From an uncultured Pelagibacteraceae bacterium (GTDB lineage Bacteria; Pseudomonadota; Alphaproteobacteria; Pelagibacterales; Pelagibacteraceae), in the NCBI GenBank assembly GCA_902557775.1, contig CACEBD010000001.1:124001-188000 (forward strand): 64,000 nt of DNA, read 5' to 3'. The notes under the pieces are model-generated. The model made no database searches and was not told the DNA's origin. It saw nothing but the letters and a program-made list of their open reading frames with translations. This document shows, in pieces, positions 9,226-42,635 of this stretch. The position numbers and the translations under genes are program-made. Numbering within the stretch: position 1 is the stretch's first letter; every line of letters begins with the position of its first letter.

Positions 9226-10221
9226 TTAATGCGTGTACTTATCAATAATGTGTTGAAAGAGGCTTATATGTTGATCATCATCATTAAGACACGGAATTAA
9301 ATCAAAATTTTTTCCTCCATTTTCTAAAAAGCTCTCTCTTGCTTGAATATTTATTTCCTCGAGTGTCTCGACGCAATCCGATGCAAAACCTGGGCATATA
9401 ACAAGTAAATTTTTAATTCCATTTTTAGGAAGATCTTCTATTGTCTTATCAGTGTAAGGAGTCAACCACTCTTGGGGCCCAAATCTCGATTGAAAAGTTG
9501 TCTTGATCTGGACTTTATCAAATTTTTCTTTCATCAGTCTGGTAGTTTTTTGACAATAACATTGGTAAGGATCTCCTTTATCAAAATAAGATTTAGGTAT
9601 CCCGTGATAGGAAGCAATTATTAGTTCTGGTTTCCAATTAATCTCACTAATTTTTTTTTCAATACTTTCTATCAATGCTTCTATGTATTTTGGTTCACTT
9701 TCATAGTGGGGAATTATCTGTAGACTAGGTTGCCACCTCATGCCCATCAAAGATCTATAAACCTCATCACAAACGGTTGCTGTTGTTGCCGCTGCGTATT
9801 GTGGGTATAAAGGTAAAATTATAATATTTTCACAACCTTCATCTTTAAGTTTATAAAGACGTGAGCTTATACTAGGATTTCCATATCTCATTGCAAAATC
9901 AACGATTATTTTTTCACTTCCTATTCTATCATGGAGCTTTTCAGCTTGGCTTCTTGTGAAATATAATAATGGTGACTCGTTGGTATCTTTTCTCCATATT
10001 TTTTTGTAAGCATGCGATGTTTTGGAGGGTCTAAAAGTTAATATAATAAGATTTAGAATTATTTGCCATAAAATCGGATTAACTTCTATCACTCTTCTGT
10101 CGGATAAAAATTCTTTTAAATATTTTCTTATATCCCACCAGCTTGTTGAGTCTGGGGTACCCAAATTTATTATTAAAACTCCAGTCTTGCCAAATTTCAC
10201 ATCTGGATGATTTTTATCCAT
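9226..10221 (-). CDS. hemH: Ferrochelatase
   Basis: HemH inserts iron into protoporphyrin IX, the last step of heme synthesis, at the inner membrane. The 331-residue sequence begins GVLIINLGTPDSTSWWDIRKYLKEFLSDRRVIE (motifs at about 14-46) and contains ILPLYPQYAAATTATV (about 135-150), IASYHGIPKSYFDKGDPYQCYCQ with the catalytic His at about 205, and PGFASDCVETLEEI (about 278-291) with the conserved Glu. Length is normal. Its start overlaps the end of hemE by 8 bases, indicating translational coupling within the heme operon. Confidence 0.97.
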   Translation of the reverse strand: MDKNHPDVKFGKTGVLIINLGTPDSTSWWDIRKYLKEFLSDRRVIEVNPILWQIILNLIILTFRPSKTSHAYKKIWRKDTNESPLLYFTRSQAEKLHDRIGSEKIIVDFAMRYGNPSISSRLYKLKDEGCENIIILPLYPQYAAATTATVCDEVYRSLMGMRWQPSLQIIPHYESEPKYIEALIESIEKKISEINWKPELIIASYHGIPKSYFDKGDPYQCYCQKTTRLMKEKFDKVQIKTTFQSRFGPQEWLTPYTDKTIEDLPKNGIKNLLVICPGFASDCVETLEEINIQARESFLENGGKNFDLIPCLNDDDQHISLFQHIIDKYTH

Positions 10222-11224
10222 TAAAATTCCTATAAAATTTTATTAATTTGTCCACTTTATCAGGGTCTGTTTCAGGAAGTAAACCGTGACCTAAGTTGAA
10301 AATATAAGGTGTATCTTTAAAAGTTTGAATGTATTTCGTCGCTGCTTTAAAAATTTCATCGTCCGGTCTAAATAATATTTTTGGATCTAGGCCACCCTGA
10401 ATAACTACATTTTTTAAATTTTTTTTCGCCCACACAGGATTAATTTCTGAGTCCAAACTAATGCAATCAGGTTTTACAATTTCTTTGAATTCTTTATACC
10501 TATCTCTAATACCTTTAGGAAAACAGATATTAGGAATGCCTAAGTTTTTACAAAACTTCACAATTTCTAAATTTGGTAAAAAACAATAATTATTAATGTC
10601 TTTTTCTGGAATTAATCCTGCCCAAGAATCAAATATTTGAACAACATCTGCGCCTGCATCGATTTGCTTTTTAATATGTATACATAAATATTTATTCAAA
10701 TCACTAATAATTTGATCTATTTTTAAATTTTTATCATTCAACTTACTTAGACTTATTTCATTTTTATCATTTTTTAATTTAAGCATATAAATAAGTAAAG
10801 TCCATGGTGCACCAATAAATGATATCAAAGATTTATCCTTATCTAGATTTTCTCTAGTAATTTTAATTGCTTCATAGATATTTTTTAATTTTTTAGTAAA
10901 CTTTTTTTCATCGTTCTCCTTGAAATTTTTGAAATTAAATTTGCTTAGCTCGGGGCCATAGTTTTTAATGAATTTGACTTCTTGCCCTAAAGCATATGGT
11001 ACCATTAAAATATCAGAAAATATTATCGCTGAGTCGACGTCAAATCTTTTGATAGGTTGAAGTGTCAATTCCGAACAAAGTTTACTGTTAAGACATAATT
11101 CAATAAAATTTTTATTTTGTGATCTAATTTTTTTAAATTCAGGCAGGTAACGTCCTGCTTGTCTCATAAGCCAAACAGATTTACAAGTTTTTTTATTTAT
11201 TAAAATTTTTTTAAGATTGCTCAT
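10214..11224 (-). CDS. hemE: Uroporphyrinogen decarboxylase
   Basis: HemE removes four carboxyl groups from uroporphyrinogen III to give coproporphyrinogen III. The 336-residue sequence has the family signature VWLMRQAGRYLPEFKKIR (about 18-35), FSDILMVPYALGQEV (about 69-83) with the catalytic Asp, FIGAPWTLLIYML (about 135-147), VQIFDSWAGLIPE and a C-terminal YIFNLGHGLLPETDPDKV. It heads the minus-strand heme operon and its start faces the putative replication origin. The hemE-origin adjacency is a classic alphaproteobacterial arrangement. Confidence 0.98.
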   Translation of the reverse strand: MSNLKKILINKKTCKSVWLMRQAGRYLPEFKKIRSQNKNFIELCLNSKLCSELTLQPIKRFDVDSAIIFSDILMVPYALGQEVKFIKNYGPELSKFNFKNFKENDEKKFTKKLKNIYEAIKITRENLDKDKSLISFIGAPWTLLIYMLKLKNDKNEISLSKLNDKNLKIDQIISDLNKYLCIHIKKQIDAGADVVQIFDSWAGLIPEKDINNYCFLPNLEIVKFCKNLGIPNICFPKGIRDRYKEFKEIVKPDCISLDSEINPVWAKKNLKNVVIQGGLDPKILFRPDDEIFKAATKYIQTFKDTPYIFNLGHGLLPETDPDKVDKLIKFYRNFNG

Positions 11225-11290
11225 TATAATAGTAAAAGTTTTTTAAAAATTTAATTATTAGTAGGCGCTGTTTAATGCTCATATAACTTT

Positions 11291-11310
11291 TTATACATAA
11301 CTTATACATA
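11291..11310 (+). repeat. Pair of DnaA-box-like 9-mers
   Basis: TTATACATA occurs twice with starts 11 bases apart. Each differs from the DnaA consensus TTATNCACA at one position (C to T at position 8). Helical phasing of the pair suits cooperative DnaA binding. Confidence 0.5.
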
Positions 11311-11408
11311 GAGAATTTAATAATTCTTTTTAAAAAAACCAGTATTTACTGAGTTTATTAGCGAAATAAACATCAGTTAAACAACATTATTAACAGCGAA
11401 CAAATTGT

Positions 11409-11438
11409 TTAATTAATGTTAATTAGTGTTAATTATAT
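11409..11438 (+). repeat. Three tandem AT-rich 10-mers in the putative origin
   Basis: TTAATTAATG, TTAATTAGTG and TTAATTATAT follow each other without a gap, so TTAA recurs every 10 bases. This could be an unwinding element or a binding array. The spacing resembles, but is one base shorter than, the TTAA-N7-TTAA site of CtrA, which controls the Caulobacter origin. Confidence 0.75.
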
Positions 11439-11498
11439 TTCTCTAATTGTTAACTTTGGTGGAAAAAAGGTATTTATTATTAATTTATTAACAAATTT

Positions 11499-12317
11499 AT
11501 GAACGAAAAATACAATGTATATCTTGTGTCTGACTCAACGGGTGAAACCTTAGATAGAATTTTTTTATCATTAAAATCACAATTTGCAAACTTTGATTAT
11601 GAAAAAAAAGAATTCGCATTTGTGAGAACTGAACAGCAAATTGATAAAATAATAAAAGAGTGTAATAAATCAGAAAACTCACTTATTTTATATACAATAG
11701 TAGAAACAAAGCTTGCTAAATATATAGCAAAACAAAGCGAAATAAATGATGTTCCGTGTTTTGGAATTTTAGGTAATTTAATATTAAGCTTTTCGAAGCT
11801 TTTAAATCAGAAAGCAATACACAAACCAAGCGCGCAACATGTTCTTGATGATGATTATTATAAAAGAATAGAGGCTATTCAATTTACAATGACCCATGAT
11901 GATGGAAAAAAAGTAGACGACATAAATAATGCAGATCTCATTCTTTTAGGAGTAAGCAGAACAAGCAAAACACCTACGTCAATTTACTTAGCTAACAGAG
12001 GATACAAAACAATAAATATTCCATTAGTTCCTGATCGAAGGCTCCCTGAAAACCTTATATCTAATACAAAAGCATGCATAATTGGTCTTATAGCAGATCC
12101 AGAAAGATTAGCAGATATTAGAAGAAACAGAGTCGCAATAATGAAAGATCACAAAATAAAAGAGTATACTGAATTGGAATATATTAAAAAAGAAGTAAAT
12201 GAGTCTAAAAACCTTTTTAAAAGAAACAACTGGCCAATCATTGACGTGACAAGAAGATCAGTAGAGGAAACAGCTGCTTCGATCTTAAAAATTATAGAAA
12301 TTAAAAAAATTAGATGA
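11499..12317 (+). CDS. DUF299 kinase/pyrophosphorylase (PEP synthase or PPDK regulatory protein)
   Basis: The 272-residue sequence matches the bifunctional regulators that phosphorylate and dephosphorylate a Thr of PEP synthase or pyruvate,phosphate dikinase. It begins YNVYLVSDSTGETLDRIFLSL and carries the P-loop LILLGVSRTSKTPTSIYLANRGYK (about 148-171) and the C-terminal DVTRRSVEETAASIL. The RP001-type gene beside the Rickettsia and Caulobacter origins is of this family. It is the first of five overlapping genes (maf, aroE, coaE, dnaQ follow), and its stop overlaps the maf start by ATGA. Confidence 0.95.
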   Translation: MNEKYNVYLVSDSTGETLDRIFLSLKSQFANFDYEKKEFAFVRTEQQIDKIIKECNKSENSLILYTIVETKLAKYIAKQSEINDVPCFGILGNLILSFSKLLNQKAIHKPSAQHVLDDDYYKRIEAIQFTMTHDDGKKVDDINNADLILLGVSRTSKTPTSIYLANRGYKTINIPLVPDRRLPENLISNTKACIIGLIADPERLADIRRNRVAIMKDHKIKEYTELEYIKKEVNESKNLFKRNNWPIIDVTRRSVEETAASILKIIEIKKIR

Positions 12318-41208: not shown

Positions 41209-41862
41209 TTAAGCTTTTTTAGTTTTAATTGGCCTTCTTCTATTTGGATAGCACCTTTTGCAAATTTTACAAGTTATTCCATGACAATCTCTTGCTTTAC
41301 AATACTCTCTACCGTACCAAATAATTTGAAGATGCAATTTGTTCCAATATTTTTTCGGAAAGATTTGTTTTAAATCCTTTTCAGTTTGCACAACATTTTT
41401 TCCACTCGTAAGACCCCATCTTTGTGCAAGCCTATGAATGTGAGTATCAACTGGAAAAGCCGGATATCCAAAACCTTGAGACATTACCACACTAGCTGTT
41501 TTATGTCCCACACCAGGTAATTGTTCTAGCTCTTCATATGTTTTAGGTACTTGACCATCGTATTTCTCAACTAATGTTTTAGATAAATAAAAAATACTTT
41601 TGGCTTTAACTCTAAATATTCCAATTTGTTTAATTAATCTCTCAATTTTTTTTCTTCCTAATTTTACAAAGTGATGAGGCTTGTAATATTTTGGATAAAT
41701 GTTTTTTGTCACATTATTTACATTGACGTCGGTACATTGCGCTGAGAGAAGCACAGATATTAAAAGTGTAAAAGTATTTTTGTAATTAAGTGGAATAGGA
41801 ACCTTTGGATAAGTCTTATTTAATAAACTAATGATGATCTTAGATTTTTCCTTATTATTCAC
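41209..41862 (-). CDS. nth: Endonuclease III with altered [4Fe-4S] cysteine spacing
   Basis: The 217-residue glycosylase removes oxidised pyrimidines from DNA. It has LLSAQCTDVNVNNVTKNIYPKYY (about 36-58), the helix-hairpin-helix ELEQLPGVGHKTASVVMSQGFG (about 107-128, catalytic Lys in GHKTA) and PVDTHIHRLAQRWGL (catalytic Asp). The C-terminal cluster reads C-x4-C-x4-C-x2-C-x2-C (about 187-203) rather than the canonical C-x6-C-x2-C-x5-C: the first, third and last positions agree with the standard frame, the second is Gly, and extra Cys sit at 6 and 14. It starts with GTG overlapping the dapB stop by four bases. Confidence 0.95.
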   Translation of the reverse strand: MNNKEKSKIIISLLNKTYPKVPIPLNYKNTFTLLISVLLSAQCTDVNVNNVTKNIYPKYYKPHHFVKLGRKKIERLIKQIGIFRVKAKSIFYLSKTLVEKYDGQVPKTYEELEQLPGVGHKTASVVMSQGFGYPAFPVDTHIHRLAQRWGLTSGKNVVQTEKDLKQIFPKKYWNKLHLQIIWYGREYCKARDCHGITCKICKRCYPNRRRPIKTKKA

Positions 41863-42635
41863 TTAAAGTTTAAAAGATCTCTCATGGAGTAGAGGCCTGC
41901 TTTTCTATTGATCAACCATTTTGCTGCCTCCAGCGCACCTTCAGAGTAAAGAGCTCTATCAAATGACTCGTGATTTAGGGTAACTATTTCTTTACCGTTT
42001 GAAAAAGCTACCTCATGTTCCCCGATCACCTCTCCTTTTCTAATTGAATTAAAGTTTATTTTTTTTCCATATGGAAATGATTTCTTGTTCAAATATTTCT
42101 TACCAATTAAACTGTAAAAATCCTTGTTTTTTCCTAAAGCAACTCCTCTTCCTAACATCAACGCGGTACCTGATGGATAATCTTTTTTACGTTTGTGATG
42201 AACTTCATAAACTTTACTTAAAAAATTTTTCCCCAAGGATCTAGATGCTACTTCAGTTAGAAACGTAAGTAAATTTACGCCTAAGCTCATATTCCCAGCT
42301 TTAAGTATTGGAATTTTTTTTGAAAATTTCTTTATTAAATTTTCCTCTCTTTTTGTAAAACCTGTTGTTCCAATCACAACTTTTTTCTTTTGTTTTGATG
42401 CAATTTTTAAAATTTCTAATGTGCATTTAGGTACTGTAAAATCAATAATTATATTCGCTTTTTTGAAAGAGTTAATTGAGTTTAGTTCAGGCTTAATTCC
42501 ATAAACTTTTTTATTTATTTTTCTATTTTCAGTTAATGAGACAATTTTAAAAAATCTATTTTTCTTCACAGACTTAATGAGTTGTTGGCCCATTCTTCCC
42601 ATGCATCCTGATATTGCTAAGTTAATTTTTTTCAT
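41859..42635 (-). CDS. dapB: 4-hydroxy-tetrahydrodipicolinate reductase
   Basis: DapB makes tetrahydrodipicolinate for lysine and peptidoglycan. The 258-residue sequence shows LAISGCMGRMGQQLIKSV (5-22, NAD(P)-binding GxxGxMG), VVIGTTGFTKREENLI (about 92-107), AGNMSLGVNLL (about 118-128), VYEVHHKRKKDYPSGTALMLG (about 142-162, catalytic HH..K and SGTA) and GEVIGEHEV. Length is normal. Its ATG overlaps the stop of the upstream 55-residue membrane protein by one base (TAATG). Confidence 0.97.
   Translation of the reverse strand: MKKINLAISGCMGRMGQQLIKSVKKNRFFKIVSLTENRKINKKVYGIKPELNSINSFKKANIIIDFTVPKCTLEILKIASKQKKKVVIGTTGFTKREENLIKKFSKKIPILKAGNMSLGVNLLTFLTEVASRSLGKNFLSKVYEVHHKRKKDYPSGTALMLGRGVALGKNKDFYSLIGKKYLNKKSFPYGKKINFNSIRKGEVIGEHEVAFSNGKEIVTLNHESFDRALYSEGALEAAKWLINRKAGLYSMRDLLNFK

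Follow-up and report, generated by a model that had tools for sequence, protein, structure and literature searches.

The 274-bp gap between the divergent genes hemE and PPSR (DUF299) in the 64,000-nucleotide stretch of SAR11 DNA analysed here (the window) is very probably, at a rough probability of 0.88, the single chromosomal replication origin of this bacterium and a homologue of the origins that lie between hemE and COG1806 in Caulobacter and Rickettsia. Judged from its sequence, it is an origin of the expected kind in a compact form, with weak candidate initiator-binding sites only. That the gap is oriC had been proposed in the original prediction, and the proposal is now supported by a switch in strand composition in a complete relative, by the symmetry of inversions, by the conservation of motifs and by the retention of these motifs where hemE has moved away. 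The evidence backs the location, the motif conservation and, through comparison with relatives, a module of trios and a box at the hemE end; we infer DnaA binding, the direction of unwinding and the cooperative action of weak sites.

The hemE/PPSR gap and its candidate DnaA boxes

No gap in the window is longer than this one (11225-11498), as originally stated, and the next longest measures 191 bp when ORFs of at least 60 amino acids are considered and 111 bp at a threshold of at least 40 (median 20 or 12 bp, respectively). On the 397-kb contig that carries the window (C1) it ranks fifth to sixth. Pfam confirmed hemE and the DUF299 gene as flanks, and the domains to the right follow the order that had been named (Kinase-PPPase (DUF299), Maf, AroE, CoaE, DnaQ-type exonuclease, SecB); the order maf-aroE-coaE-dnaQ-secB is also that of Caulobacter. 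To the left lie hemE (URO-D in Pfam), hemH, a flavodoxin-domain gene and rho. The features of the locus are as follows, with the basis for each in brackets.

10214-11224, minus strand: hemE, left flank (Pfam PF01208, E 1e-82)
11225-11498, no strand: proposed oriC, the whole hemE/PPSR intergenic region (gap length, conservation in 79 gaps, composition and inversion evidence)
11225-11255, no strand: putative AT-rich DNA-unwinding element (low duplex stability)
11256-11264, plus strand: DnaA-trio-like TAT-TAG-TAG, putative single-strand DnaA track (fixed-phase trios in g1, g5 and g6)
11265-11268, plus strand: GC cluster GCGC, between trios and box (GC-rich spacer across g1)
11269-11277, minus strand: trio-proximal candidate DnaA site, degenerate, TGTTTAATG on the plus strand (TGTT invariant in g1)
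11281-11287, plus strand: conserved ATATAAC (92% mean column identity, 79 genomes)
11291-11299, plus strand: candidate weak DnaA box TTATACATA, one mismatch (TTTATACA 95% conserved)
11302-11310, plus strand: candidate weak DnaA box TTATACATA, 11 bp from the first copy (94% conserved)
11353-11371, no strand: inverted repeat GTTTATT-AGCGA-AATAAAC (sequence; arms 88-95% conserved)
11387-11395, plus strand: candidate weak DnaA box TTATTAACA (TTAT[TC]AACA conserved in g1)
11409-11438, plus strand: array of 10-bp period with TGTTAATTA (reverse complement TAATTAACA), possible weak DnaA sites (95% conserved)
11485-11493, plus strand: candidate weak DnaA box TTATTAACA directly before PPSR (95% conserved)
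11499-12317, plus strand: PPSR kinase/pyrophosphorylase (DUF299/COG1806), right flank (Pfam PF03618, E 6e-92)

The motifs first reported for the gap are all present, namely the TTATACATA pair at 11-bp pitch, the two TTATTAACA copies, the tandem 10-mer array (units TTAATTAATG/TTAATTAGTG/TTAATTATAT) and a spaced inverted repeat (11365-11384 / 11405-11424, 85% complementary). The original prediction had also proposed a search for such repeats in other SAR11 genomes, and conserved blocks are indeed shared by 79 gaps. This set, labelled g1, comprises the window and 78 relatives found by their PPSR protein and titled Pelagibacteraceae or SAR11, of which a few distant members may belong to sister genera. 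Gap length (263-286 bp) and the motif blocks, at fixed spacing, are kept across the set although HemE identity is only about 50-85%. The blocks conserved in at least 75% per column are ATATAAC, two copies of TTTATACA, TTTATT, the TATAAACA arm, TGTTAATTA, TGTTA, TTATTA and TTTATTAACA. The AT content of the g1 gaps is above the genome average: their mean GC is 18%, compared with about 24-36% along the window.

On average a g1 gap contains 3.66 near-consensus DnaA boxes (0.74 in dinucleotide shuffles) and a gap of the sister genus g6 contains 4.40 (0.78 in shuffles), and TGTTAATTA occurs 1.00 times per g1 gap against 0.05 in shuffles. An exact consensus box is present in 76% of g6 gaps, while exact TTATNCACA was found in one of the 79 gaps of the window's group; on this comparison the window's genus has lost nearly all of its consensus boxes. 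The gap of the window has no exact TTATNCACA, in agreement with what had been noted, and holds four candidate boxes that each differ from it by one mismatch, a count at the top of the contig. For such near-consensus boxes the gap is the densest 280-bp window in the complete genome of a relative (G075) and joint densest on C1; TTATACATA by itself shows no enrichment across the window, with 3 copies where 1.3 are expected. A perfect TTATACACA stands in G075 at the site equivalent to the PPSR-end box (11485), and g6 has consensus boxes at the equivalent place; the sites in the gap are better read as low-affinity DnaA boxes. Of the two options first offered, non-canonical DnaA sites or a different recognition word, the former thus survives as low-affinity boxes, and the latter is not required because domain IV of DnaA keeps its canonical motif (RDHTT) in both G000 and G075.

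CtrA, which represses the origin in Caulobacter, was not found in 14 SAR11 genomes, the best match (35% identity) being typical of other response regulators. The query, a Caulobacter CtrA sequence, was validated by matches of 49-84% identity in most of 40 other alphaproteobacteria. No perfect CtrA site (TTAA-N7-TTAA) occurs in the window, and in g6 the motif is at shuffle level; g1 has some excess (0.76 against 0.22 in shuffles), which we attribute to the 10-mer array. Since SAR11 appears to lack CtrA, this regulator probably takes no part in initiation at the gap.

A candidate unwinding module at the hemE end

The hemE end of the gap, overlooked in the original prediction, reads TAT TAG TAG, GCGC and TGTTTAATG, with the trios 4 bp from the box, and is a likely unwinding module with the layout of a DnaA-trio/BUS element. 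The same trio phase and spacing recur in g1, g5 and g6, with an in-phase match in g4 too, and the spacer across g1 has a GC content of 62%, compared with 18% in the gap as a whole. Of 25 g6 gaps, 88% carry two or more clean trios, and in most g6 genomes the trio-proximal box is much closer to consensus than in the window; in 12 of the 25 it is TGTGAATAA, the minus-strand consensus box. The anchor used for the module favoured TAG upstream, and the block also stands out in an unanchored alignment. In the window the box is five mismatches from TTATCCACA and only three trios are clean, so that the module rests on comparison with relatives. Further afield, a related element of trios followed by [AT]T-N-[GC]C and TGTG-N-AT occurs in 7 of 26 gaps of other alphaproteobacteria (0.035 in shuffles), always on one strand, with 0 on the opposite strand.

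In the mechanism we propose, ATP-DnaA would bind cooperatively to the weak boxes (the 11291/11302 pair, 11387, the TGTTAATTA array and 11485) and be passed on to the site at 11269-11277 near hemE. Starting from this site, a DnaA filament would cross the GC cluster, extend along the TAT-TAG-TAG trios in single-stranded form and open the AT-rich DNA at 11225-11255, where helicase loading could follow.

The location could also be correct and unwinding occur elsewhere, at the TTATTAACA end beside PPSR or at the 10-mer array, with the hemE-end module non-functional in this genus. We regard this as unlikely, though it deserves serious weight. The degenerate box in the window would fit it, as would the lack of two clean contiguous trios in half of the g1 genomes; conservation is also higher at the PPSR-end box and in the 10-mer array than in the module. 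However, g1 keeps the TGTT (invariant or nearly so) and a highly conserved TAGG in the hemE-end block, the trio phase and GC spacer persist, and trios and boxes are clearer in other genera. The least stable 40 bp of the gap, moreover, are those starting at 11225, at the hemE end, and belong to the least stable 0.4% of contig C1.

A wider proposal can be put forward tentatively: the origin of this SAR11 genus may have lost all high-affinity DnaA boxes together with CtrA control, leaving 270 bp with low-affinity sites only, at which initiation would follow the level of ATP-DnaA alone. If true, this would be a streamlined origin in a very abundant marine lineage, SAR11 being among the ocean's most abundant bacterial groups.

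Position of the proposed origin in the chromosome

Between genera, here C1 and G075, gene order fits inversions whose centre of symmetry is no more than about 10 kb from the gap for 239 of 333 orthologues, whereas centres more than 30 kb from the gap fit only 152-165 of them. Symmetric inversions around the origin are a known pattern. The inversions of G075 relative to C1 are also nested around the near-origin point.

A distance of 577 kb separates hemE from PPSR in genus g4, where rho has become the left neighbour of PPSR (seen in G065). The gap beside PPSR (G065, L279:2308-2660; G064, L276) keeps the TTAT-TAG-GTCA-TGTTTATAA block and TTATAAACA sites, which are weak boxes, and the coarse skew minimum remains beside PPSR with hemE gone. 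These observations weigh against a reading of the gap as merely the divergent promoter or regulatory region of hemE and PPSR, conserved for transcription, with the origin elsewhere nearby. Such a reading can point to the divergence of both genes from the gap, to its AT-richness and to some promoter-like hexamers, but it is very improbable: promoter-like matches are only at shuffle level, no Rfam element matches the gap, its DnaA-box density is extreme genome-wide, and in g4 the block and weak boxes stayed by PPSR while the distant hemE has no boxes upstream.

The original prediction had looked to a GC-skew minimum at the gap. The window's own contig was uninformative here, as its skew is dominated by gene strand and has no clean minimum at the gap; in G075 the expectation was borne out in that the extremes fall near the gap and its antipode. 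The raw cumulative skew of G075 (gap at 66.8-67.1 kb) is lowest at 98 kb, a point 31 kb distant from the gap, and highest at 674 kb, 7 kb from the antipode of the gap (667 kb). With gene-strand effects removed via fourfold-degenerate sites and two switch points fitted, the best switch falls at 50-60 kb, the gap being 0.7 log units lower. Relative to a fit with no switch the gain is 39, whereas 100 permutations never gave more than 10. Fourfold-site GC skew in G075, though not in G062, is more negative in leading- than in lagging-strand genes. Normally G is in excess on the leading strand, and the sign seen here is the reverse, so that polarity is taken from the raw skew and from gene orientation: in G075, 64% of the coding sequence is directed away from the gap, as are all the highly expressed genes checked (rRNA, ribosomal-protein, rpoBC, tuf, recA and ftsZ). 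Sampled at one-third coverage, G062 and G065 each have a coarse skew minimum and a gene-strand optimum close to the gap, and their corrected skew switch is within permutation noise. In G075, parA and a single, near-perfect parS lie within 9 kb of the gap; a search for dif gave no convincing site. Contig C1 carries parA, yet no parS within two mismatches.

In each of the 12 genomes examined, 61-73 kb separate dnaA from the gap. The gene is found toward PPSR in four of them (G000, G062, G064 and G065), and toward hemE in G066 and in seven genomes of g6. An origin at dnaA, as in many other bacteria, is hardly credible here. In its favour, the raw skew minimum of G075 is about as far from dnaA (at 130 kb) as from the gap (at 67 kb). 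Against it, placing the corrected switch at dnaA makes the fit 7.5 log units poorer, dnaA swaps sides between genera, the inversion symmetry is not centred on it, and near-consensus boxes upstream of it number none in C1 and two in G075.

A second four-box cluster in the window (41690-41863) was considered as an origin and rejected. Its near-consensus boxes fall within an endonuclease III-like gene, named nth on sequence grounds, and the beginning of the ORF that follows, and the cluster is probably a product of chance.

Comparison with known origins

Read coverage of SAR11 indicates one origin and one terminus, and growth in this group has been estimated by origin-to-terminus read ratios (PMC9589681). 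One such growth method assigns dnaA-bearing fragments to the origin (PMC7852909), a placement that would err by 61-73 kb here. Within the literature searched, we found no paper that maps the SAR11 origin to the hemE/PPSR gap, and curated databases such as DoriC may list it. With an oriC defined to 274 bp, and with its candidate boxes and candidate unwinding site, the control of initiation would become testable in a streamlined, apparently CtrA-less alphaproteobacterium.

The hemE-end module resembles the basal unwinding system (BUS) of Bacillus subtilis and Helicobacter pylori, in which a box, a 4-bp GC-rich spacer, in-phase trios (3'-GAT-5') and AT-rich DNA follow one another (PMC6669920, PMC8287927, PMC8235120). 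A BUS element calls for three or more trios (3'-NAN-5') no farther than 16 bp from a DnaA box; the window has just three clean trios, and the published search rule, which allows two mismatches, would miss so degenerate a box.

Origins between hemE and COG1806 have been described for Caulobacter, Rickettsia and relatives (PMC1914354, citing Brassinga et al., 2002). The two genes are likewise divergent in all 26 gaps sampled across the class in which both are in the locus. The SAR11 gap differs from these 26 in being shorter (theirs span 330-902 bp), and from the Caulobacter and Rickettsia origins in that the window's genus has almost no consensus boxes and CtrA was not found. With the Caulobacter crescentus Cori and the Rickettsia origin it shares the same flanking genes, their divergent arrangement, an AT-rich gap and, as candidates, DnaA-type boxes (PMC1914354).
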